A stretch of 64,000 nt of DNA, taken from contig CAMOUL010000002.1 of the NCBI GenBank assembly GCA_946626605.1, positions 62,001-126,000 of the forward strand, given 5' to 3'. Below are positions 8,271-63,777 of this stretch, piece by piece. This DNA is from an uncultured Bacteroidales bacterium. GTDB taxonomy: Bacteria > Bacteroidota > Bacteroidia > Bacteroidales > Paludibacteraceae. Every line of letters begins with the position of its first letter. Positions within the stretch are counted from its first letter, which is position 1. The notes under the pieces are model-generated. The model was not told where the DNA came from. It made no database searches and saw only the letters and a list, made by a program, of their open reading frames with translations. The position numbers and the translations under genes are program-made.

Positions 8271-8314
8271 CCGACGGTCAACCGACGGTCAAGCGACGGT
8301 CAACCGACGGTCAA
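8271..8314 (+). repeat. 11-bp tandem array CCGACGGTCAA x4 (intergenic panC-pdxB)
   Basis: Direct reading: CCGACGGTCAA CCGACGGTCAA GCGACGGTCAA CCGACGGTCAA. Confidence 0.97.
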
Positions 8315-14610: not shown

Positions 14611-17600
14611 ATGAAGAAATTTAACGAGTACAAGAAATTAGATTTGCCCGCGCTGAGCAAAGAAGTGTTGGAGCAATGGGAGAAAGAAAATTTATTCGAA
14701 AAAAGTATCTCTACCCGCGAGGGACATCCGCAGTTCCTCTTTTTTGAAGGACCTCCTTCGGCAAACGGAATGCCGGGTATCCACCACGTCATGGCGCGTA
14801 CCATCAAGGACACTTTCTGCCGTTTCAAAACGATGCAGGGTTTTCAGGTTCGCCGCAAGGCAGGATGGGACACCCACGGTCTGCCGGTAGAGTTGGGAGT
14901 GGAGAAAATGTTGGGTATCACCAAGGAAGATATCGGCAAGAAGATCTCCGTCGATGAGTACAATGCCGCTTGCCGCCGGGAGGTGATGAAATATACCAAG
15001 GAATGGACCAACCTTACCAAGCAGATGGGCTACTGGGTTGATCTAGACAACCCCTATATCACCTATGACAACAAGTATATCGAGACCCTTTGGTATCTCC
15101 TCAAGGAGCTCTACAAGAAGGGTTACCTCTATAAGGGTTATACCATTCAGCCTTATTCCCCTGCTGCCGGAACAGGTCTGAGTTCCCACGAGCTCAACCA
15201 GCCCGGTTGCTACCGCGACGTCAAAGATCTCACTTGCACCGCCCGCTTCAAAGTAAAAGACGGTCGTTACATCATCGCTTGGACCACTACCCCTTGGACG
15301 TTGCCTTCCAACACGGCTCTCTGTGTGGGTCCGAAGATTGACTACGTAGAAGTGGAGACACCCACCGGCGACCATATTATCCTTGCGGAGGCTCGCCTGA
15401 GCGCTTATCAGAAAGACCTCTGCGGAACGGATGAAGAAGGCAAAGCTCTGGAGCCGAAGATCGTCGCTCGCTACAAAGGTTCCGAACTCGTCGGTCTTGA
15501 ATACGAGCCGCTCTTCCCATGGGTCAACCCGGGCGAAGGAGCTTTCCGCGTCATCCCGGGAGACTACGTTACCACCGAAGACGGAACCGGTATCGTACAT
15601 ATCGCCCCTACTTTCGGAGCGGACGATAAGAAGGTTGCAGACGCAGCCGGCGTGCCGGGTCTCTATATGCAGACCAAGAACAACGGACCGCGGCCTATGG
15701 TCGATTTCACCGGTAAATATTGGCGCGTGGAAGACCTCGACGAAGAGTGGTACAAAGCGAATGTCAACGACGAACTCTACCGCAAGTATGCCGGCAGATG
15801 GGTGAAAAACGCCTATGACCCGCAGTTTACCATCGAAGGAAAGTACGATGAAACCGCAGCTTCTAAGGCAGAAACGCTCGATCTCCACCTCTGTCTGGAG
15901 ATGAAGGCAGACGGCCGTCTCCTCCGCACGGAGAAACATGTGCACTCGTATCCGCATTGCTGGCGTACCGACAAACCCGTCCTCTACTACCCGCTTGACT
16001 CCTGGTTCATCAAATCTACCAAAGCCCGCGAGGAGATGATTGCCCTCAATAAGACCATCAACTGGCAACCGGAATCCACCGGAACAGGACGTTTCGGTCA
16101 GTGGCTCAACAACCTCAACGACTGGAATCTCTCCCGCTCGCGTTATTGGGGAACGCCGCTGCCGATCTGGCGCACCGAAGATGGTTCCGAGGAAATTTGT
16201 ATCGGTTCCATCGCAGAATTGTTCGATGAAATCGAGAAATCTGTGAAGGCGGGCTTCATGAAAGCGAACCCTTGGCCGAACCACAAAGTGGGCGATTATT
16301 CCAAAGCCAACTACGATCCTTCGGTCATCGATCTCCACCGTCCGTACGTGGACTCGATCATCCTCGTCTCCCCGTCCGGCAAACCCATGAAGCGTGAACT
16401 CGACCTCATCGATGTATGGTTCGATTCGGGCGCGATGCCGTACGCACAAAACCACTATCCCTTCGAGAACGCCGACCTGCCACGCACGGCAGACTTCATC
16501 TCCGAAGGAGTGGACCAGACCCGCGGATGGTTCTTCACGCTCCATGCCATCCACACGATGATCGAAGGAACGGTAGCCTACAAAAACGTCATCTCCAACG
16601 GTCTTGTACTTGATAAGAACGGCAACAAGATGTCCAAGCGCCTTGGCAACGCAGTCGATCCGTTTGGCGCACTTGATACGTACGGAGCCGATCCCGTGCG
16701 TTGGTACATGCTCACCAACTCTTCGCCGTGGGAGAACCTCAAATTCGACCCCGAAGGAGTCGATGAGGTCCGCCGCAAATTCTTCGGCACACTCTATAAC
16801 ACCTATTCGTTCTTTGCGCTTTACGCTAATGTAGATCATTGGACGGTCGAATCCCGACAGTCAACCGACGGTCAACCGACGGTCAAAGCCAATGTTATAC
16901 CCACGCAAGGACTCTCTGAGATCGACCGATGGATCCTTTCCAAGCTCAATTCGCTCGTCAAAGAGGTCACCGAAGCCTACGAAACATACGAACCGACCAA
17001 GGCCGGACGTGCTATCTCGGATTTCGTGCAGGACGACCTCTCTAATTGGTACGTGCGCCTGAACCGCAAACGTTTCTGGGGCGGAGAGATGAACACAGAC
17101 AAACAAGCGGCTTACACAACTCTCTACACCTGTCTCAAGACCGTAGCGCAACTCATGGCGCCGAACGCACCGTTCTTTGCCGATCGTCTCTACCGTGACC
17201 TCACGGGCGAAACGGTACACCTCAGCACGTGGCCGAAAGCCGACGAAGCGCTCATCAACAAGACCCTTGAGCGTCAGATGTACCTCGCGCAGCAGGCAAC
17301 CTCTACGATCCTTTCGCTCCGCAAACGCGCTGAGAAGAATGTGCGTCAGCCACTGCAGAAAGCGGTCATCCCGACGCCGGATCAAGAATCGCAACGTGCA
17401 TTGATGCACGTTTCAGACCTCATCAAATCGGAGGTCAACGTCAAAGAGTTGGTTATCGTTCCTGCCGAGCAATCGGAGATCCGTTTGGTCAAGAAGATCA
17501 AACCGAACTTCAAAGTCCTCGGTAAGAAAGTCGGCGCGAACATGAAAGCCGTAGCCGCTGAGATCAACGCGATGAACCAAGACCAGATTGCTCAAATGGA

Positions 17601-18009
17601 GCAAAACGGCAACTATCAACTATCAACTGTCAACTATCAACTGATAGCCGAGGATGTGGAAATTTTGACGGAAGACATGCCGGGCTGGTTGGTAGCCAAT
17701 AACGGAATCCTTACTATCGCGCTGGACATCGAGCTGACGGATGAACTCATCGAAGAAGGTATTGCGCGTGAGCTGATCAACCGCATTCAGAACCTCCGTA
17801 AGTCGTCCGGCTTGGAGATCACCGACCGCATCGAGATCGAACTCGAAGACTGTCCTCAGATCCACAACGCAGTTCTCCACTGCGGTGATTACATCAAATC
17901 GCAAGTACTCGCTACCAAACTCGAACTCAATTCTCAATTGTCAACTGTCAATTGTCAAATCCTCGAGATGGACGGTTATAACGTGAATATTAACATCAAA
18001 AAAGCATAA
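14611..18009 (+). CDS. ileS: isoleucyl-tRNA synthetase (carries three short-repeat arrays in frame)
   Basis: FFEGPPSANGMPGIHHVMARTIKDTFCRFKTMQGF, DQTRGWFFTLHAI, KMSKRLGNAVDP (KMSKR). Confidence 0.96.
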   Translation: MKKFNEYKKLDLPALSKEVLEQWEKENLFEKSISTREGHPQFLFFEGPPSANGMPGIHHVMARTIKDTFCRFKTMQGFQVRRKAGWDTHGLPVELGVEKMLGITKEDIGKKISVDEYNAACRREVMKYTKEWTNLTKQMGYWVDLDNPYITYDNKYIETLWYLLKELYKKGYLYKGYTIQPYSPAAGTGLSSHELNQPGCYRDVKDLTCTARFKVKDGRYIIAWTTTPWTLPSNTALCVGPKIDYVEVETPTGDHIILAEARLSAYQKDLCGTDEEGKALEPKIVARYKGSELVGLEYEPLFPWVNPGEGAFRVIPGDYVTTEDGTGIVHIAPTFGADDKKVADAAGVPGLYMQTKNNGPRPMVDFTGKYWRVEDLDEEWYKANVNDELYRKYAGRWVKNAYDPQFTIEGKYDETAASKAETLDLHLCLEMKADGRLLRTEKHVHSYPHCWRTDKPVLYYPLDSWFIKSTKAREEMIALNKTINWQPESTGTGRFGQWLNNLNDWNLSRSRYWGTPLPIWRTEDGSEEICIGSIAELFDEIEKSVKAGFMKANPWPNHKVGDYSKANYDPSVIDLHRPYVDSIILVSPSGKPMKRELDLIDVWFDSGAMPYAQNHYPFENADLPRTADFISEGVDQTRGWFFTLHAIHTMIEGTVAYKNVISNGLVLDKNGNKMSKRLGNAVDPFGALDTYGADPVRWYMLTNSSPWENLKFDPEGVDEVRRKFFGTLYNTYSFFALYANVDHWTVESRQSTDGQPTVKANVIPTQGLSEIDRWILSKLNSLVKEVTEAYETYEPTKAGRAISDFVQDDLSNWYVRLNRKRFWGGEMNTDKQAAYTTLYTCLKTVAQLMAPNAPFFADRLYRDLTGETVHLSTWPKADEALINKTLERQMYLAQQATSTILSLRKRAEKNVRQPLQKAVIPTPDQESQRALMHVSDLIKSEVNVKELVIVPAEQSEIRLVKKIKPNFKVLGKKVGANMKAVAAEINAMNQDQIAQMEQNGNYQLSTVNYQLIAEDVEILTEDMPGWLVANNGILTIALDIELTDELIEEGIARELINRIQNLRKSSGLEITDRIEIELEDCPQIHNAVLHCGDYIKSQVLATKLELNSQLSTVNCQILEMDGYNVNINIKKA
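16854..16886 (+). repeat. 11-bp array (3 units) in frame within ileS
   Basis: CCGACAGTCAA CCGACGGTCAA CCGACGGTCAA; encodes RQSTDGQPTVK. Confidence 0.95.
17611..17645 (+). repeat. 7-bp array within ileS
   Basis: AACTATC AACTATC AACTGTC AACTATC AACTGAT. Confidence 0.95.
17929..17956 (+). repeat. 7-bp array within ileS 3' end
   Basis: AATTCTC AATTGTC AACTGTC AATTGTC. Confidence 0.93.
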
Positions 18010-26290: not shown

Positions 26291-26354
26291 ATCACATTTT
26301 CGGCACAAAATTTTACCTTAAAATCACATTTTCGGCACAAAATTTTGCCTTAAA
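26291..26354. repeat. 32-bp tandem repeat x2 plus partial third copy
   Basis: ATCACATTTTCGGCACAAAATTTTACCTTAAA then the same with one change, then ATCACAAAATCCGG. Confidence 0.95.
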
Positions 26355-26440
26355 ATCACAAAATCCGGCGCAAAGATACTGCTTTTTTTCGAGATATGCA
26401 AATTTTTTTACATAAAAAATGTTCCCTTAACGCAAAAATA

Positions 26441-29278: not shown

Positions 29279-30430
29279 ATGGGATTATTACTATTGTTTT
29301 TATTTGGCGCGATGGCGGTCAGTTTCCTGTGTTCCGTGCTGGAATCCGTACTGATGTCCACGTCTCTGAGTTATATTAATCTGCGTGAGGAGGAAGGTTA
29401 TGCGCCCGCGAAACTGATGAGCGCGTACAAAGAAGATACAGGTCGTCCCTTAGCGGCGATTCTCTCGTTGAATACGATTGCAAACACCATCGGAGCGGCC
29501 GGCGTGGGTATGCAGGCAACTGCGGTCTTCGGCAGCAAGTGGTTCGGTTTGGTTTCCGCCATCACCACCATCCTCATCCTCTTTTTCGGCGAGATCATCC
29601 CGAAAGTCATCGGCACGACCTATTGGCGCGAGCTGATGGGCCTGACCGCACGTGTCATCCGGGTCTTGATCTTCGTGCTTTACCCCTTGGTGTGGCTCGT
29701 CGAGCTCATCTCCCGCATGGTCCCGGACAACGAAGATGATCCCTCTGTGAGCCGCGAAGAGGTTCTGGCGATGGTGAATGTCGGCGAGGAAGAAGGTGTT
29801 GTGGACGAGGACGAGAATAAGATCTTCTCGAACCTCATGCGTCTCGATTCCATCCATGCCTATGACGTCATGACGCCGCGCGTGGTGGCGAAGATTGCGC
29901 CGGAGAACATGACTCTCCGCGCCTACTACGACAACGACGAGTACGACCATTTCTCCCGCATTCCGCTCTACAAACCCGAAGCGCCGGAGTATATCACCGG
30001 CTACATCCTGCGGAACGATGCCCTGGAGGACCTCACGGAGGATCACTTCCGCAAGACCTTAGGCAGCATCAAACGGCCCTTGCCGGCTTTCGATCAGGAC
30101 CTCACGCTCGGTACGATCTTTGATTCTATGCTCAAACAAAAGAGCCAGATTGCGCAGGTCATCGACGAATATGGCATGTTCGTCGGCATCCTGACTTTGG
30201 AGGACATCATCGAGACGATTTTCGGCCTGGAGATCATCGACGAAAACGACACGGTCATCGACATGCAGCAGTATGCACGCGAGCGATGGGAACAACGGCA
30301 AAAGAAGTATAAGAAATTAGCAGTCAATCCCGACGGTGAAACGACGGTGAACCGACAGTCAAACGACGGTCAAAGCCAAGGTAAGGGCAAAGTAAATGAG
30401 GAACAAGAGCAACATACGGATCGAGAATAA
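29279..30430 (+). CDS. CNNM/hemolysin-family CBS-domain transporter
   Basis: N-terminal DUF21 membrane domain, [27 protein letters not shown] domains, [25 protein letters not shown]. Confidence 0.9.
30331..30374 (+). repeat. 11-bp array (4 units) at 3' end of CNNM gene
   Basis: CCGACGGTGAA ACGACGGTGAA CCGACAGTCAA ACGACGGTCAA. Confidence 0.93.
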
Positions 30431-46107: not shown

Positions 46108-47065
46108 AAAGAACGATGTCTCTTTTTCCTATTCGCCGCAGACACCCCGTGCGGGACAGCCGGTGACTTTCTCCAACCACTCTTCCTCCGGAGAGGAGTG
46201 GGAGTGGACTTTCGGGGATGGCGCTACTTCGACGCTCAAGTCACCTACCCACACTTTCAAACGGCCCGGAGAGTACGACGTCATCCTCAAGGTGGATAAG
46301 AAAAACCGTTGGACGGCGTATAAGAGGATTGTCGTCCTCGATACCATCCCTACTTTCGTGGCGTCCGACACGACTTTTTATATATTCCGCGACTATACCT
46401 TCACGGCGAATGTCTATAACCCCTATAACTACGACATCTCGTATGCCTGGTACTTGGGAGACACCCTTGCCGCAAAAGACAAACCCTCCGTCAAGTGCTT
46501 CTTCACGCACCCCGCTCAGGAGGAGAAAGTCAAACTGGTAGTCATCCTCAACAAGGATACTACGGTTGTGGAGAAAGTCTTCCAAATCCAGGATTATGCC
46601 ACCAACTCTGTCCTCTTCCGTACGCCGGACGCCGACTACCGGCAGCGGCTTTTTGGTACTCGTTTCGAGCCTTACAAGGCCGACCCGGACGCAAAACAGC
46701 TCTTGGATGAGGAGCAAGACACCGTCCAGACCTACAACGGCTTTACCTTCCGCCTCTCCGAGCTGAAAACCGTTTTCCCTCAGATGGAGGGCTTCCATAT
46801 CGCCAACCGCAAGATCTACTACCGCGCTAACGGGCTTTGGGTGGCGAATATCGATGGCGCTTACCCCGTGCAGATTGACGCTTCCCCTTGCGCCGCCATG
46901 ACGCTGGATGACGTGCTGGACAGCCGTATCTATTGGGCGAACGCGCAGGGCGTGTGGTACATGCCTTTTGTCGGGTCGGATAACAACAAGTTTGTCACGA
47001 CCCCTGTCCTCTTGAATTCATTAACGAATATAACAAAAATCGCTGTGGATAGCGACCTCAAATAA
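46055..47065 (+). CDS. PKD-domain lipoprotein
   Basis: LTLCCAVVACKKND lipobox; EWEWTFGDGATSTLKSPTHTFKRPGEYDVIL PKD motif; overlaps miaA 3' end. Confidence 0.8.
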   Translation: MKKILIVLTLCCAVVACKKNDVSFSYSPQTPRAGQPVTFSNHSSSGEEWEWTFGDGATSTLKSPTHTFKRPGEYDVILKVDKKNRWTAYKRIVVLDTIPTFVASDTTFYIFRDYTFTANVYNPYNYDISYAWYLGDTLAAKDKPSVKCFFTHPAQEEKVKLVVILNKDTTVVEKVFQIQDYATNSVLFRTPDADYRQRLFGTRFEPYKADPDAKQLLDEEQDTVQTYNGFTFRLSELKTVFPQMEGFHIANRKIYYRANGLWVANIDGAYPVQIDASPCAAMTLDDVLDSRIYWANAQGVWYMPFVGSDNNKFVTTPVLLNSLTNITKIAVDSDLK

Positions 47066-48657
47066 TGCAACCTGATTATATTTTTGAAACCTCTTGGGAA
47101 GTATGCAACCGCGTAGGCGGTATTTATGCGGTGCTCAGTACCCGCGCGGCTTCCATGCAGGCGGAGCACCCCGACAAAGTGTTTTTCTTCGGTCCCGATT
47201 TCGGCGATCACAGTGATATCTTCTTTCAGGAAGACAAATCCCTCCTGAAAAAATGGCTTTCTTCTTTCGACTTTGAGCAAAGCGGTCTTTCTTCTCTTCG
47301 TGTCGGCCGTTGGAAAGTGCCCGGAGAACCCATTGCTATCTTGCTGAAGTTCGACGGCCTCTGGTCGCGCAAGAATGAGATATACGCCTGGGCGTGGGAG
47401 AAGTTCCAAGTCCAGAGCCATGCCGCCTACGGCGATTACGACGAGTCCTGTCTCTTCGGCTACGCCGCCGGCATCGTCATGGAGAACCTCTATCACTGGC
47501 TGTGTGTAAATCAGTCTGTCAGCCCGAAGGGCGGTCTGTCAGCAAAGCGGTCTGTGCTCTGTCAGCAGGCGCAGCCTGCGGTCTGCGCCCACGCCAACGA
47601 GTGGCAGACGGCCTTCTCGATCTTCTACCTCCGGGATCATTGCCCGGAGATAGCCACCCTCTTCACCACCCATGCTACGGGTATCGGTCGTTCTATCGCC
47701 GGCAACGGCAAACCCCTCTACGACTATTTCGAGGGCTATAACGGCGATCAGATGGCAGCGGAGTTGAACATGGTCTCCAAGCACTCGGCGGAGAAACAGG
47801 CTGCGCATTTTGCCGACTGCTTCACCACCGTCAGCGACATCACCGCGCGCGAGTGCGCCCAGCTCCTCGACAAACCCGTGGATATCGTCACTCCTAACGG
47901 TTTCGAACCGACCTTCGTGCCCAAAGGAAAAGCTTTCGACATCCGCCGTAAAGAGGCGCGCGAGGCTCTGCGCCGCGTGGCGGGCGAGCAGTTGGGTGGA
48001 GTAGTGCCGGAGAACGCACTTTTTGTCGCTATCTCCGGTCGCCAGGAGTGGAAAAACAAAGGCATCGATGTCTTTGCGGCGGCGCTGGACAAGCTCGCGC
48101 AGAAGATCTACCATAGCGACCGGCCCGAGAAAGAAGTCGTGGCGTTTGTCATGATCCCTTACCTCGATCGCGCACCTTCGCGCAAAGGTAAAGTGAGCGC
48201 GATCTTTGTGCCTTACTATCTTGATGGCCATGATCCTCTGTTCGGCAAGACTTACTACGATCTGCTCATCGGCATGGATGTCACCGTCTTCCCCTCGTAT
48301 TACGAGCCTTGGGGCTACACGCCGCTGGAGTCCTGCGCCTTCCATGTGCCGACGATCACCACCTCCCTCGCGGGCTTCGGAGCTTGGGCAGCGCAGCAAA
48401 AAGACCAGTTTGGCGTCATCGTCATCGAACGCAATGACTCCAACTTCGATGCCGTCGCAGAGCATATCGCCGATGACCTCTTGCGCTTCGACCGCCTGTG
48501 CGGTGAAGACAAAGCCCGGGCACGCAAAGAAGCTGCAGCGGTGGCGAAGAAAGCCGACTGGAAGCATTTCTTCAAGTACTACCGCAAGGCCTATGAGATA
48601 GCTTTGAAAAAAAGAGATAACCGTATATCAGAACTCCAAAACCCACGTTTATTATGA
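47065..48657 (+). CDS. glycogen synthase-like glycosyltransferase (GT3-type)
   Basis: FETSWEVCNRVGGIYAVLSTRA, TTHATGIGRSIAG, IVTPNGFEPTF, FPSYYEPWGYTPLES. Confidence 0.85.
   Translation: MQPDYIFETSWEVCNRVGGIYAVLSTRAASMQAEHPDKVFFFGPDFGDHSDIFFQEDKSLLKKWLSSFDFEQSGLSSLRVGRWKVPGEPIAILLKFDGLWSRKNEIYAWAWEKFQVQSHAAYGDYDESCLFGYAAGIVMENLYHWLCVNQSVSPKGGLSAKRSVLCQQAQPAVCAHANEWQTAFSIFYLRDHCPEIATLFTTHATGIGRSIAGNGKPLYDYFEGYNGDQMAAELNMVSKHSAEKQAAHFADCFTTVSDITARECAQLLDKPVDIVTPNGFEPTFVPKGKAFDIRRKEAREALRRVAGEQLGGVVPENALFVAISGRQEWKNKGIDVFAAALDKLAQKIYHSDRPEKEVVAFVMIPYLDRAPSRKGKVSAIFVPYYLDGHDPLFGKTYYDLLIGMDVTVFPSYYEPWGYTPLESCAFHVPTITTSLAGFGAWAAQQKDQFGVIVIERNDSNFDAVAEHIADDLLRFDRLCGEDKARARKEAAAVAKKADWKHFFKYYRKAYEIALKKRDNRISELQNPRLL
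47514..47585 (+). repeat. mini-hairpin cassette repeats in glycogen synthase CDS
   Basis: GTCTGTCA-GCCC-GAA-GGGC-GGTCTGTCA-GC-AAA-GC-GGTCTG..CTGTCA-GCAGGC-GCA-GCCTGC-GGTCTG. Confidence 0.85.
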
Positions 48658-50456
48658 AAAATCTTCGGATGATAGCAGCTATGCTGCTCCTTTCAACTTT
48701 CAACTTTCAACTTTCAACTATCCAGGCTTGTACGAATTTTTTGGTCGGCAAAGATGCCTCCGCGGATGGTAGTACCATTATCTCCTATGCCGCGGACTCC
48801 TACGGCATGTACGGATTCCTGCATTTCGTCCCGGCTGCCGATCATCCGGAAGGCGCCCTGCGCGAAGTGAAAGACTGGGACACCGGACGGCCGCAAGGAT
48901 CCATCCCCCAGATCGCCCACACCTATACCGTGGTGGGAAACATGAACGAGCACCAGGTCACCATCGGTGAGACCACTTGGGGAGGCCGCGAGGCACTCTG
49001 GGACACCGTCGGCATCGACTACGGCTCACTCATCTACATCGCTCTCGAGCGCAGTAAGACCGCACGTGAAGCCATCGAGTGGTTCATTACCCTCGTCAAC
49101 GAATACGGCTATGCCTCCGAAGGAGAGTCCTTCTCTTTCGGCGACCCCAATGAGGTCTGGATCATGGATCTGATCGGCAAAGGAAAAGGGCAGAAAGGCG
49201 CTGTCTGGGTCGCTGTACGCATTCCCGACAACGCCATCGCCGCCCATGCCAACCAAGCGCGCATCACCACGCTGCCTCTCTCCGCAAAGCACAAACTGAC
49301 CAAAGAGGAGAAACGCCTCCAGAAAAAACTCAACTGTGTCTGCAAGGGCGATTGGATGTGGAGCAAGGATGTCATCTCCTTTGCCCGCGAGAAAGGATTC
49401 TTCTCCGGCGCAGACAAAGATTTCTCCTTCCAGGCTGCCTATAACCCCTTTGATTTCAGCGGTTTATATGTCTGCGAAGCACGCGTATGGTCCTTCTTCA
49501 ACCATTTCAGTACCGACATGGACAAGTACTTCGACTACGCTACCGGCAAGACCTTCCGCGAAAATAATAAATCATCAATCATAAATCATAAATCATCAAT
49601 TAGCCCGGAGGGCGAACACATGCCCTTGTGGATCGTCCCGAACCGTAAAGTCTCCGTCCAGGATATCAAGGAATGTATGCGGGATGAATACAAAGGTACG
49701 CCGCTTGACATCACCCAAGGCACCGACGCCGGCCCCTGGAACAGCAAACTCCGCTATGGCGGCTTAGGCTTCAAACTGTCTGTCAGTCCGGAGGACGGTC
49801 TGTACTCTGTCAGTCCAAAGGACGGTCTGTCAGGCGAAGCCGGTCCTGCAGCGGATACGCTGCAATACTGGTACGAGCGCCCGACGGCGACCCAGCAGAC
49901 CGCTTGGTCGTTCGTCGCGCAAATGCGTCCGTACAGCAAATACGGTATTTTCTGGTTCGGTGTGGACGATGCCGCCTGCAGCTGCTACACCCCGATGTAC
50001 AGCTGCCTCAAGCATGTGCCGGAGTGTTTTGCCGAAGGCAACGGAGACAGCTACACCTACTCGCCGACATCCGCTTGGTGGACCTTTAATATCGTCGCTA
50101 ACTGGGCGTACACCAAGTACAGCCGCATGTACCCCCACATCCGCGAAAACCAGCAGATTTGGGACGATAAATTCAATACCCAGATCGCCGGAGTCGATGC
50201 GCAGGCTTCCGAACTCAGCGAAGAGGACGCTAAATCCTTCCTCTCTTCCTATTCGTGCTCGCAGGCAGAGAATTTGGTGGCGGATTGGCAGAGACTCTAC
50301 TTCTATCTGGTGACGAAATTTATCGACGGACAGGAGCGCAAAGAAGAAAACGGCCAGTTCAAGCGCAACCAGTATGGCAACAGCTGCGGCCCGAACCGGC
50401 TCCCTCTCCCCGAGAAATTCCTCCGACTCGTCGCCCCGGAAATAACCCACGAATAA
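48654..50456 (+). CDS. C69 family dipeptidase
   Basis: ACTNFLVGKDASADGSTIISYAADSYG, GETTWGGRE, NEVWIMDLIGKG. Confidence 0.9.
   Translation: MKNLRMIAAMLLLSTFNFQLSTIQACTNFLVGKDASADGSTIISYAADSYGMYGFLHFVPAADHPEGALREVKDWDTGRPQGSIPQIAHTYTVVGNMNEHQVTIGETTWGGREALWDTVGIDYGSLIYIALERSKTAREAIEWFITLVNEYGYASEGESFSFGDPNEVWIMDLIGKGKGQKGAVWVAVRIPDNAIAAHANQARITTLPLSAKHKLTKEEKRLQKKLNCVCKGDWMWSKDVISFAREKGFFSGADKDFSFQAAYNPFDFSGLYVCEARVWSFFNHFSTDMDKYFDYATGKTFRENNKSSIINHKSSISPEGEHMPLWIVPNRKVSVQDIKECMRDEYKGTPLDITQGTDAGPWNSKLRYGGLGFKLSVSPEDGLYSVSPKDGLSGEAGPAADTLQYWYERPTATQQTAWSFVAQMRPYSKYGIFWFGVDDAACSCYTPMYSCLKHVPECFAEGNGDSYTYSPTSAWWTFNIVANWAYTKYSRMYPHIRENQQIWDDKFNTQIAGVDAQASELSEEDAKSFLSSYSCSQAENLVADWQRLYFYLVTKFIDGQERKEENGQFKRNQYGNSCGPNRLPLPEKFLRLVAPEITHE
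48695..48722 (+). repeat. 7-bp array in signal peptide of C69 peptidase
   Basis: AACTTTC AACTTTC AACTTTC AACTATC. Confidence 0.96.
49562..49603 (+). repeat. 7-bp array within C69 peptidase
   Basis: AAATAAT AAATCAT CAATCAT AAATCAT AAATCAT CAATTAG. Confidence 0.93.
49781..49847 (+). repeat. mini-hairpin cassette repeats in C69 peptidase
   Basis: CTGTCA-GTCC-GGA-GGAC-GGTCTGTACTCTGTCA-GTCC-AAA-GGAC-GGTCTGTCA-GGC-GAA-GCC-GGTCCTG. Confidence 0.87.
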
Positions 50457-50468
50457 GTCCAACCGTTA

Positions 50469-50504
50469 GTGATTCGTTGGAGATACCTTGGTGATTCGTT
50501 GGAG
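50469..50504. repeat. 14-bp direct repeat with 22-bp period in convergent intergenic gap
   Basis: GTGATTCGTTGGAG at 50469 and 50491. Confidence 0.9.
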
Positions 50505-50535
50505 GTTAGGCTACCCACAGCCTACCCGCAAGCCC

Positions 50536-51327
50536 CTAAAATTTGTAACTGAAACTTACGAACCATCCCCACTCGGACATGTACTGTGTGGGGATTTGTT
50601 GGTGTCTGACGAGATTATTCAGACCGAAATCATACCCGCTCTGCAACCGGTAACGGTCCCATTCCAGACCGCCGCCTACGCCCCATTGGATATTCGCGCG
50701 GACTAACTCATCCGCCATCCGGTCGTACGGCTCGGTCGCGATACCTTGACCCTTGAGCCACGTCTCCGTGCCGGCGCTCAGGTGGTTCTCGATATAGTCC
50801 GTCTGCGCCATGCCGATATGGAGCTGCGGACCCGTGTAGAAGAATAGATTCAGTTTTTTCCAGAGCGGAATCGTATAATATACCCTTACCGGTATGGTCA
50901 GGTTATGCGCTAACACACGGTGTTTGACGTACTCCGTCTGAACCGACGGAGCGTCCATCGACCGCCAGTGCTGCTCTCTCTGACCGTACAGCAAGGTATA
51001 ATACACACCCGTCTGCAGGCTGAAATGGATCGGCAGCAGGAACGTGAAATTGGCGCCGGCGCGTACGCCGTGAAGGTACATCTCCGGGAAGGTGAGACTG
51101 TGCGTCCGTTGTTGGTGTTGCGCGTACCCCACCTCGATGCGGTATTCCACACCAAACTGGTAACTCTCCTCGCGCACAACTTTTTTCGTCGGATCGAAGA
51201 ACGTGTTATCCGCTATCTGGTACGCCGGTTTATTGGGCTCGTCCGCCCACGCCATTCCTGCCCACAAACATGCCATGAAGAGGAGGATTCCTGCCTGTTT
51301 ATTCCTTAAACTGCCCATTTGTTTCAT
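50536..51327 (-). CDS. outer-membrane beta-barrel protein (porin family-like)
   Basis: Signal peptide, alternating barrel-like strands, terminal aromatic WGWFVSFSYKF. Confidence 0.65.
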   Translation of the reverse strand: MKQMGSLRNKQAGILLFMACLWAGMAWADEPNKPAYQIADNTFFDPTKKVVREESYQFGVEYRIEVGYAQHQQRTHSLTFPEMYLHGVRAGANFTFLLPIHFSLQTGVYYTLLYGQREQHWRSMDAPSVQTEYVKHRVLAHNLTIPVRVYYTIPLWKKLNLFFYTGPQLHIGMAQTDYIENHLSAGTETWLKGQGIATEPYDRMADELVRANIQWGVGGGLEWDRYRLQSGYDFGLNNLVRHQQIPTQYMSEWGWFVSFSYKF

Positions 51328-60097: not shown

Positions 60098-60226
60098 TTC
60101 TTCGTTAGGTTTGCGGGGCTTTAGCCCGCGCCCTTTCTCTGTGCATTTTTCGCGCATCTTTGCGCGAAATAATCGTTGTATATTTAAATTATTTTTTGTA
60201 TCTTTGCGCTCGAATTTGAGTATTTT

Positions 60227-60296
60227 GTATCAGAGATTTGAACATTTTGTATTTGAGATTTGAACATTTTGTATTTGAGATTTGAACATATTGTAT
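60227..60296. repeat. 22-bp tandem repeat x3 plus 4 bp
   Basis: GTATcaGAGATTTGAACATTTT / GTATTTGAGATTTGAACATTTT / GTATTTGAGATTTGAACATATT / GTAT. Confidence 0.96.
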
Positions 60297-60502: not shown

Positions 60503-62182
60503 ATGCAGAATATCAAAATCGCCGTCATAGGCCTGGCTCAGAGCGGCAAATCCGCCCTCACGTCCGCCCTCCAAAACCTGGCGGACAAAGATGCGCATGA
60601 CCTGCAATTCACGGAGGTACACAACCCCGATGAGCTGCACGGTCATTCATATGACGTGGTGCTTCAGGTGGTGGACTCCACGAGGCTTGAGGAGTCGCTT
60701 CTCCTCACTCCGCACATCATCGACGAGCATGAGAAGATCGTCCTTGCCATCGGCCGTTACGACCTCTTGCTGGCAACCGACCACTCGCTGGATATCCCGA
60801 AAATGCAGCAACTCATCGGTGTACCCACCTGCCGCGTCTCCGCGCAGAAGAACTATGGTCTGGAGGAGTGCCTGACGTTGATAGAAGACACAGCGGCTAA
60901 GCCGCTTTCTACGGCGCACCCGATCTATCACCTCCGCGACCAGGGCGACGACGATGCCTACCGCGCCTACGTCCATGGTGTCCTGACCCAGACGCTGACC
61001 CACGCCAAGAACGACCCGCACCGGACGCGTCTGGAGAAGATCGACAAGGTTCTGACCAACCCTTGGCTCGGCTTCCCGATCATGATGGCGGTGCTGTATT
61101 TCGTGTTCTGGTGCACCTTCACCCTTGGCGCTTATCCGCAGGAGTGGATAGAGAACGGCATCAACGCGCTCTGCGAGCTCGCTCATGCGCACATGGCGGA
61201 CGGCTGGTTCTCGGGTCTGCTCATCGACGGCGTGCTGCAGGGCGTAGGAGCCGTGCTTGCCTTCCTGCCGAATATCATCATCCTCTTCTTCTTCATCTCC
61301 CTCATGGAGGACTCAGGCTACATGGCGCGCGAGGCGTTTATCATGGATACCGTTATGCACCGCGTCGGTCTTCACGGACGTTCGTTCGTGCCGATGCTCA
61401 TGGGTTTCGGGTGCAACGTGCCGGCGATCATGGCGGCGCGCGACATCCAGAACCCCAAAGACCGCGTACTGACGATGCTCATGGTGCCGTTCATGTCCTG
61501 TTCCGCAAGGCTGCCGGTATATATGCTCTTCGTAGATACTTTCTTCGCGAACCACAAAGCCCTCGTCATGATCTCTCTCTACGCGATAGGTATCTGCCTG
61601 TCCGTGCTCTTTGCCGTGGTGATGAAGAAGACCCCGTGGTTCCGGCAGGATGACGACGACTCCGTCAACGAGTTGCCGGAGTTCCGTCTGCCCAAGGCCC
61701 GCGCCACCGCAGCGCATATATGGGAACGTGTGGCGGACTACCTCCAGAAGATATGTACCGTCATCCTCTGGGCGTCGATCATCATCTGGGCACTCGAATA
61801 CTTCCCCTCGCAGGACCTCAACGACCTCGAGAACTCCTACCTCGCCTCCATCGGCAAGGCCGTCTCGCCGCTCCTGGAGCCGCTTGGCTTCGATTGGAAG
61901 ATGTCCGTCTGCCTCCTCACCGGTCTGCCTGCCAAGGAAGCCATCGTCTCGACGCTCGCTATCCTCTATGGCGGCGATATAGCTACCGCAGGCTTCACGC
62001 CTCTCACGGCGTTCTCTTTCCTGCTCTTCGTCCTGCTCTATTTCCCTTGCGTAGCGACGATAGCTACCCTCCGCCGCGAGGCAGGAAAAGTATGGGCGTG
62101 GTTCACCGTCTTCCACTCCCTCGCCCTCGCTTGGCTCGTCTCCTTCCTCGTCTATCAGATAGGATCCCTACTAGTGCCATAG
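60503..62182 (+). CDS. feoB: FeoB-type ferrous iron transporter with shortened, degenerate G domain
   Basis: Gate-domain motifs LEDSGYMAREAFIMDTVMHRVGLHGRSFVPMLMGFGCNVPAIMAAR, MVPFMSCSARLPVY; 559 aa. Confidence 0.88.
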   Translation: MQNIKIAVIGLAQSGKSALTSALQNLADKDAHDLQFTEVHNPDELHGHSYDVVLQVVDSTRLEESLLLTPHIIDEHEKIVLAIGRYDLLLATDHSLDIPKMQQLIGVPTCRVSAQKNYGLEECLTLIEDTAAKPLSTAHPIYHLRDQGDDDAYRAYVHGVLTQTLTHAKNDPHRTRLEKIDKVLTNPWLGFPIMMAVLYFVFWCTFTLGAYPQEWIENGINALCELAHAHMADGWFSGLLIDGVLQGVGAVLAFLPNIIILFFFISLMEDSGYMAREAFIMDTVMHRVGLHGRSFVPMLMGFGCNVPAIMAARDIQNPKDRVLTMLMVPFMSCSARLPVYMLFVDTFFANHKALVMISLYAIGICLSVLFAVVMKKTPWFRQDDDDSVNELPEFRLPKARATAAHIWERVADYLQKICTVILWASIIIWALEYFPSQDLNDLENSYLASIGKAVSPLLEPLGFDWKMSVCLLTGLPAKEAIVSTLAILYGGDIATAGFTPLTAFSFLLFVLLYFPCVATIATLRREAGKVWAWFTVFHSLALAWLVSFLVYQIGSLLVP

Positions 62183-62214
62183 TATCCTAGGACCCTAGTA
62201 TCCTAGTACCCTAG
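62171..62214. repeat. 8-bp-period CTAG array overlapping feoB stop
   Basis: CTAG/ATAG/CTAG/CTAG/CTAG/CTAG at 62171, 62179, 62187, 62195, 62203, 62211. Confidence 0.96.
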
Positions 62215-62232
62215 AAAAAAAATTATACAATT

Positions 62233-62601
62233 ATGAAAAAATATCTTTTTATTATCATCTGTTCTGTATTCTGTACTCTGTCAGTGAGCGCAGCGAACGG
62301 TCCAGCAAAGCGGTCTAACCGCCAGACGGTTGTCCTCTCTTGCGACCTCCACTGTCAGGGTTGTTGCGATAAGATCATGAAGAATATCGCTTTCGAGAAA
62401 GGTGTCAAGGATCTGGTCTGCGACCTCGATACCAAGACCGTCACCCTCACCTATGACACGACCAAGACCGATCTCCCGACGCTCCTCAAGGCTTTCGAGA
62501 AGATCCACAAGCCCGCGAAGGTAAAGGAGCCCGAGAGCCAAGAGCCGAAAGCCAAGAGTTCCAAGACGGACGCCGACTCCGGCGCCTCCACTCCTTATTA
62601 A
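62233..62601 (+). CDS. secreted heavy-metal-associated (HMA) domain protein
   Basis: Signal peptide; VVLSCDLHCQGCCDKIMKNIAFEKGVKDLVCDLDTKTVTLTYD. Confidence 0.85.
   Translation: MKKYLFIIICSVFCTLSVSAANGPAKRSNRQTVVLSCDLHCQGCCDKIMKNIAFEKGVKDLVCDLDTKTVTLTYDTTKTDLPTLLKAFEKIHKPAKVKEPESQEPKAKSSKTDADSGASTPY
62276..62316 (+). repeat. mini-hairpin cassette in HMA gene
   Basis: CTCTGTCA-GTgaGC-GCA-GCgaAC-GGTCCA-GC-AAA-GC-GGTCT. Confidence 0.75.
62534..62561 (+). repeat. 7-bp array at 3' end of HMA gene
   Basis: AGAGCCA AGAGCCG AAAGCCA AGAGTTC. Confidence 0.8.
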
Positions 62602-62667: not shown

Positions 62668-62671
62668 TTGC

Positions 62672-62707
62672 CTAGAGCTCTAGGACTCTAGAATTCTAGT
62701 TCCCTAG
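62672..62707. repeat. 8-bp-period CTAG array abutting gapA stop
   Basis: CTAG at 62672, 62680, 62688, 62696, 62704. Confidence 0.97.
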
Positions 62708-62709
62708 AA

Positions 62710-63777
62710 TTACTTGAGTTCTGCGAGGTATTTGATAGTACGTACCATCTGGCTGGTGTAGCTGTTCTCGTTGTCGTACCAGCTAACAACCTGTACTTGA
62801 TAGGTATCCTCGTCGATCTTAGCAACCATAGTCTGGGTAGCATCGAAGAGCGAACCGAACTTCATACCGATTACATCGCTCGAAACGATCTCATCCTCGG
62901 TGTAACCGAAGCTCTCGGTCTGAGCAGCCTTCATTGCTGCGTTGATACCCTCTTTGGTGATGTCTTTACCCTTAACTACTGCTACCAGGATAGTGGTCGA
63001 ACCCGTAGGAGTCGGAACGCGTTGTGCGCTACCGATCAGCTTGCCGTTCAGCTCAGGAATAACGAGGCCGATAGCTTTTGCAGCACCGGTAGAGTTCGGA
63101 ACGATGTTCTGTGCACCTGCACGGCTACGACGGAGATCACCCTTACGCTGCGGACCGTCGAGAATCATCTGGTCGCCGGTGTAAGCGTGGATAGTGCTCA
63201 TGATACCGCTCTGGATCGGAGCGTATTTGTGAAGAGCTGCTGCCATCGGAGCGAGGCAGTTGGTCGTACAAGAAGCTGCGGAGATAATCTTATCTGCCGG
63301 AGTCAGGGTCTTGTGGTTTACGTTGTAAACGATGGTCGGAAGGTCGTTTCCTGCAGGAGCAGAGATAACTACTTTCTTTGCACCGGCCTGGATATGAGCC
63401 TCTGCTTTAGCTTTCGAGGTATAGAAACCGGTACACTCGAGTACTACGTCGATGCCCAGCTCACCCCACGGCAGCTCAGCTGCGTTCGGCTTAGCGTAGA
63501 TAGTGATCTCCTTGCCGTCAACGGTGATTGAACCCGGAGTAACGACAGTCTTGCCGTCCTCTGCGAGAACTGCGTCCTTGTAAGTTACAGTGTGCTTGCC
63601 CTCACCGAACTTGCCTGCGAAACCACCCTGAGCGGTGTCATATTTCAGAAGGTGAGCCAACATTTTCGGGCTGGTCAGGTCGTTGATGGCAACTACCTCG
63701 TAACCCTCTGCCTCGAACATCTGACGGAAAGCCAGACGACCAATACGGCCAAAGCCGTTAATTGCTACTTTTGTCAT
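62710..63777 (-). CDS. gapA: glyceraldehyde-3-phosphate dehydrogenase, type I
   Basis: [55 protein letters not shown]. Confidence 0.97.

Follow-up and report, generated by a model that had tools for sequence, protein, structure and literature searches.

The glycogen synthase gene described here raises two questions: what are the mini-hairpins that lie in series within it, and how did they arrive there? The window, meaning the whole 64,000-nucleotide stretch analysed, contains a GT3 glycogen synthase ORF of 530 residues on the plus strand (47065–48657; Pfam Glycogen_syn, 5.9e-76). Its array occupies 47514–47585 and is composed of three units and their linkers, all read on the plus strand. Unit 1 (47516–47538) has the arm GCCC and the loop GAA, and its hairpin GCCC-GAA-GGGC lies at 47522–47532. 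Unit 2 (47536–47554; arm GC, loop AAA) carries GC-AAA-GC at 47542–47548, and unit 3 (47559–47585; arm GCAGGC, loop GCA) carries GCAGGC-GCA-GCCTGC at 47565–47579. The first-pass annotation had reported three units in a row that share their flanks and differ in their arms just before the AHANEW motif, and this was confirmed in the ORF, where the flanks are nearly constant. The units are indeed in series as it had stated, but the linker joining units 2 and 3 is longer than described. It is the 16-nt GGTCTGTGCTCTGTCA (47549–47564, plus strand), which equals the 9-nt linker plus one heptamer. The translated array is SVSPKGGLSAKRSVLCQQAQP, directly N-terminal of VCAHANEW. In the solved structure of the muscle enzyme this site corresponds to a short segment that adjoins the conserved AH-EW strand, and it was hypervariable among the 30 relatives compared. 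In the closest relative, G022 (97% amino acid identity), the array version is 39 nt shorter. Other relatives have GTCGAAA-type heptamers, CTAG repeats or almost nothing at the site.

The units are dispersed. The pattern CTGTCAN{3,30}GGTCTG gave five matches in the window against a mean of 0.13 in 100 dinucleotide shuffles, none of which reached five. In the whole genome, a Paludibacteraceae-type rumen MAG, the flank pattern was matched 32 times, compared with six times for the reversed control, and 28 of the 32 matches enclose a hairpin as judged by inspection. The genome-wide search proposed earlier thus yielded further copies rather than none. The same flanks had been claimed for the C69 gene, and two exact units were found there, with the hairpins GTCC-GGA-GGAC (49786–49796, plus strand) and GTCC-AAA-GGAC (49813–49823, plus strand). 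A third hairpin of the C69 ORF, GGC-GAA-GCC (49833–49841, plus strand), is followed by the 3' flank GGTCC. The claim for the HMA gene held in that a copy is present, but this copy is a variant. The heptamers TCTGTAT TCTGTAC TCTGTCA (62263–62283, plus strand) lead into a 15-nt hairpin of the long class with tandem G.A mismatches, GTGAGCGCAGCGAAC (62284–62298, plus strand), which is followed by the 3' flank GGTCC and then by the hairpin GC-AAA-GC (62305–62311, plus strand).

The anatomy of the units was determined from 762 stem-bearing copies. A unit is 16–24 nt long, has the flanks CTNNCA and GGTC, and is joined to its neighbour by a nearly constant 9-nt linker, GGTCTNNCA, which lengthens to 16 nt with one extra heptamer (GGTCTGTACTCTGTCA, GGTCTGTGCTCTGTCA). 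Units are often preceded by TCTGTAC/TCTGTAT runs, and the linkers themselves belong to heptamer (TCTGTNN) runs. The hairpins are mostly 7, 8, 9, 11 or 15 nt long with stems of 2–6 bp, and their arms change in compensation: letters and lengths vary, and pairing is kept. The second pair was formed in 339 of 369 7-mers (shuffle maximum 245), 118 of 137 9-mers (maximum 72) and 96 of 109 11-mers (maximum 64). When each distinct hairpin of these three lengths was counted once, the second pair was still above every shuffle. In the 15–16 nt class, 33 of the 81 15-mers and 7 of the 33 16-mers have two short stems with tandem G.A mismatches between them, in the form GY-GA-NN-loop-NN-GA-RC.

The loops follow a rule known from DNA. 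Among the 3-nt loops of 7-mers, 78% are GNA, against 8% in comparable 7-mers from the same genomes, and 16% are ANA. The 4-nt loops are GNYA in 66 cases and GNRA in 11. Loops of 3 and 4 nt are closed by C-G (541) or T-A (95) in 636 of 638 copies, with two exceptions. Because copies share ancestry, these per-copy counts are not independent, and the argument is borne by the 105 distinct hairpins with 3–4 nt loops, 103 of which have C-G or T-A as the closing pair and two another pair. RNA would favour GNRA tetraloops. In addition, no Rfam covariance model matched 46900–50600 up to E=1. On the DNA side, extraordinarily stable mini-hairpins have been described in which a GNA or GNNA loop sits on two or more G-C pairs, and the GCGAAGC hairpin melts at 78 °C and is nuclease-resistant (PMC4686876). 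The units share this loop and closing-pair rule, the melting and nuclease figures being those published for GCGAAGC. Most units also have the two G-C pairs; in GT-AC stems one pair is G-C and the other T-A. Taken together, the loop rule, the closing pairs and the excess of GNYA over GNRA point to single-stranded DNA, not RNA, as the form in which the units fold. We infer from these sequence patterns that the GGTCTNNCA-bearing strand is probably what selection acts on, as single-stranded DNA.

The distribution of the units was scanned with the linker fixed as GTCTGTCA. Copies in the same genus were very uneven (91 in G002, 35 in G022, 34 in G007 and none in many genomes), and in 40 other families of the order the pattern occurred 0–2 times per genome, which is the chance level. 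A looser pattern gave 136 matches in G002. With GGTCTNNCA as the pattern, seemingly near-empty genus-mates turned out to be rich (82 in G024, 36 in G026 and 32 in G003). Therefore, most genus-mates carry the family, and fixing the linker had created part of the early impression of patchiness. The copies that GTCTGTCA missed also reveal that species differ in linker dialect (GT, TA, AA, AT, TT, CT). In the named-genome scan, the tandem copies among the matches listed were nearly all in rumen Paludibacteraceae/Bacteroidales MAGs. Viral carriage was rejected, as none of the 42 pattern matches in viral contigs had a GNA hairpin. A literature search, whose range excluded the main SDR paper, returned no earlier description of this repeat in Bacteroidales.

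Most arrays are genic. In about 0.83 Mb, 188 arrays were found, and 139 of them (about three quarters) lie inside ORFs of at least 150 codons, in variable protein loops. Of these, 78 are in gene sense, 53 in antisense and eight ambiguous, and chance may account for some of the single units in antisense. All three phases are represented among the starts of the sense arrays (27/36/15), so that no peptide is conserved. Host identity was established by profile search for glycogen synthase and C69 only; the other host genes resemble gltD, xseA, murI, pcrA, ribD, dxs, aroA and alr by eye from aligned flanks. The arrays turn over fast between species. At 17 sites of G000 and 12 of G022, comparison with sister species showed arrays that were shared, empty or rebuilt, or replaced by another short repeat. 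The ortholog comparison suggested by the first-pass annotation thus revealed differences among relatives at GT3 and other loci, and an insert shared by descent across families was not found. In a metallo-beta-lactamase-like gene with a shared array, GCT-GAA-AGC and GCC-GCA-GGC differ between G000 and G022 by a two-sided compensatory change. In the gltD-like gene, the corresponding position of G006 holds four units, each with the linker GGTCTAACA and not GGTCTGTCA.

Other short repeats were observed beside the units. A period-11 dispersed repeat, CCGACGGTCAA, occurs in the window at 8271–8314, 16854–16886 and 30331–30374, at about 15 further loci of the genome, and once in a G022 gene that resembles aroA. 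Heptamers in tandem (CAACTAT, TCAATTG, CTTTCAA, AAATCAT) form arrays at 17610–17642, 17927–17958, 48690–48719 and 49562–49600; two of these four fall within the C69 ORF or at its start, and heptamers of many sequences are present throughout the genus. CTAG-rich period-16 repeats are located at 62171–62214 and 62671–62711, and CTAG repeats of a similar kind occupy the loop of glycogen synthase in G037 and a pcrA-like loop in G006. Longer tandem repeats, of period 22 (ATTTGAACATTTTGTATTTGAG) and period 32, lie at 60214–60296 and 26291–26360. A palindromic filler resembling CTTCCCTTTAGGGAGGGTCGGGGTAGGC recurs in protein-coding loops of G022, and G472 has dispersed inverted repeats with CCCTTCGACAGGCTCAGGGTGACA arms and GCGCGAAGC units at their edges. 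In G374, a member of Bacteroidia from another order, the GNA hairpins GGCGAAGCC and GACTGCGCAGCAGTC occur among CCATAAA heptamers in a seemingly intergenic stretch (C1:525200–527600). Since this lies outside the order, the pairing of GNA hairpins with heptamers probably arose more than once.

Among the known systems, the cyanobacterial SDRs are the nearest in working, and the likeness proposed is one of kind, with no claim of common descent. Elhai et al., in Genome Research in 2008, reportedly described them as dispersed repeats of about 20 nt, confined to a lineage, which form hairpins with compensatory change, lie within tandem heptamers and are nested. The units resemble them in size, in their presence at many unrelated loci, in compensatory hairpins, in tandem heptamers, in nested copies and in restriction to one lineage. 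On the other hand, the present units differ in having unrelated sequence in another phylum, variable arms within one family, DNA-type GNA/GNNA loops, a mostly protein-coding location and linker dialects between species. An insertion of SDR5 inside HIP1 has been documented (PMC4390886). Heptamer repeats are over-represented in bacteria, and the heptameric simple sequence repeats of Xanthomonas and Nostoc (PMC4692102) likewise form 7-nt tandem arrays that differ between close species. However, those are intergenic and G-rich, whereas here heptamers frame hairpins and are largely genic. The first-pass annotation had named the Rickettsia palindromic elements as a precedent. The analogy holds for in-frame insertion into many unrelated genes. 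In contrast, those elements are about 150 bp long with a conserved encoded peptide (PMC10969869), and the units are 16–24 nt long, indifferent to phase across all three, and conserve a DNA hairpin instead of a peptide; membership was rejected on length and peptide.

That the units form a family of very small dispersed repeats found across the genus is well supported. For their mode of spread we infer that they travel as short single strands resistant to nucleases, with no transposase dedicated to them, and we give this reading, the simplest that is left, a probability of roughly 0.55. Such strands would be captured at non-homologous sites, joined by microhomology-guided, short-patch illegitimate recombination or template switching. 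Slippage between linkers would then lengthen or shorten the arrays locally, and purifying selection would spare the copies that a protein loop or gene boundary can tolerate. Several observations count against this reading. The strand bias is weak or absent: leading and lagging orientations numbered 44 and 64, with no clear preference, and same-strand clustering of units was weak (p = 0.02 from hand-entered partial lists). No pair of near-identical genomes revealed an insertion event. Loss of recJ was considered as a licence for illegitimate recombination and rejected, for recJ is intact throughout; one known route to more illegitimate capture is therefore gone. As a tentative extension, the units may be transposase-free selfish DNA, in which an exonuclease-resistant single strand survives until it is captured in replication or repair. 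Selection would then act on the DNA fold and not on the sequence, and capture would continually rewrite the loops of housekeeping proteins.

The strongest rival, which we regard as doubtful, is a non-autonomous element moved in trans by a transposase or recombinase that reads the folded single-stranded hairpin and GGTCTNNCA, in the manner of IS200/IS605. Such enzymes do read a strand-specific hairpin with a constant flank, and both the dispersal and the species dialects fit coevolution of enzyme and element. However, the arm letters and lengths are free to vary, and heptamer-type linkers surround most units. Furthermore, no Y1 transposase (PF01797; RAYT/IS200) was matched in the copy-bearing G000, G002, G004, G014, G024, G026 and G034, and carriers in which Y1_Tnp was undetected include some that are 96–98% complete. 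Since most genomes are incomplete MAGs and two enzyme families were searched, this absence is not proof. A structure-reading recombinase of another family is a possible mover. The comparison with REP/REPIN elements and their RAYT transposases (PMC3116915), including the GTAG/CGTC-tagged REPs (PMC3733652), bears on the same point. The units are like them in being short, palindromic, dispersed in high copy, patchy among species and sometimes intragenic. REPs, however, have stems of 5–13 bp, GTAG or CGTC tags, an arm sequence fixed per family and a mainly extragenic location (PMC3116915, PMC3733652), while the units have 2–6 bp stems, variable arms and, in several carriers, no Y1 transposase. Neither tetranucleotide stands beside the palindrome in the unit flanks. 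Membership was rejected on the transposase, as judged from incomplete genomes, on the tag and on extragenic placement, 139 of the 188 arrays being in ORFs.

An RNA-level element, either a hairpin of mRNA or a sequence copied through reverse transcriptase, is improbable. Movement through RNA was reportedly proposed for the cyanobacterial SDRs by Elhai in 2008, and RVT_1 was found as one gene each in G000 and G002. It had no match, however, in G007, G024, G032, G034, G046 and G047, several of which are among the richest genomes. The GNYA-over-GNRA preference, the lack of an Rfam match and the occurrence of units on both gene strands also speak against RNA. Thus RAYT/IS200 transposase and reverse transcriptase were both rejected as the mover, since neither tracks the copies in the genomes searched. 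Purely local birth, by slippage and quasi-palindrome correction in place without movement between loci, is very improbable. Tandem heptamers are common in the genus, template switching can make arms symmetric, and some adjacent hairpins are identical beyond chance (39 of 385 against a shuffle mean of 17). Nevertheless, the same 9-nt linker stands at dozens of unrelated loci per genome, and 2-bp stems are too short for priming correction. Adjacent hairpins mostly differ, which indicates that simple duplication, although it does occur in places, does not account for the arrays. A functional motif kept by selection, as a DNA-uptake sequence or peptide linker, is hardly credible: the linker, as a constant 9-mer whose dialect differs between species, is reminiscent of uptake sequences, but copies range from none or few to more than 100 per genome inside one genus, the units are clustered and not spaced, their positions are not conserved, and the three phases leave no conserved peptide.

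The spread of repeats of about 20 nt has been an open question since the cyanobacterial description. The loop code points to single-stranded DNA as the selected state and makes this question directly testable in vitro. A natural process goes on inserting and replacing short stretches of the loops in core enzymes, so that a protein can differ between sister species in its repeat content instead of by point mutation. Therefore, annotation, ortholog alignment and phylogeny of this large uncultured group should account for the units.
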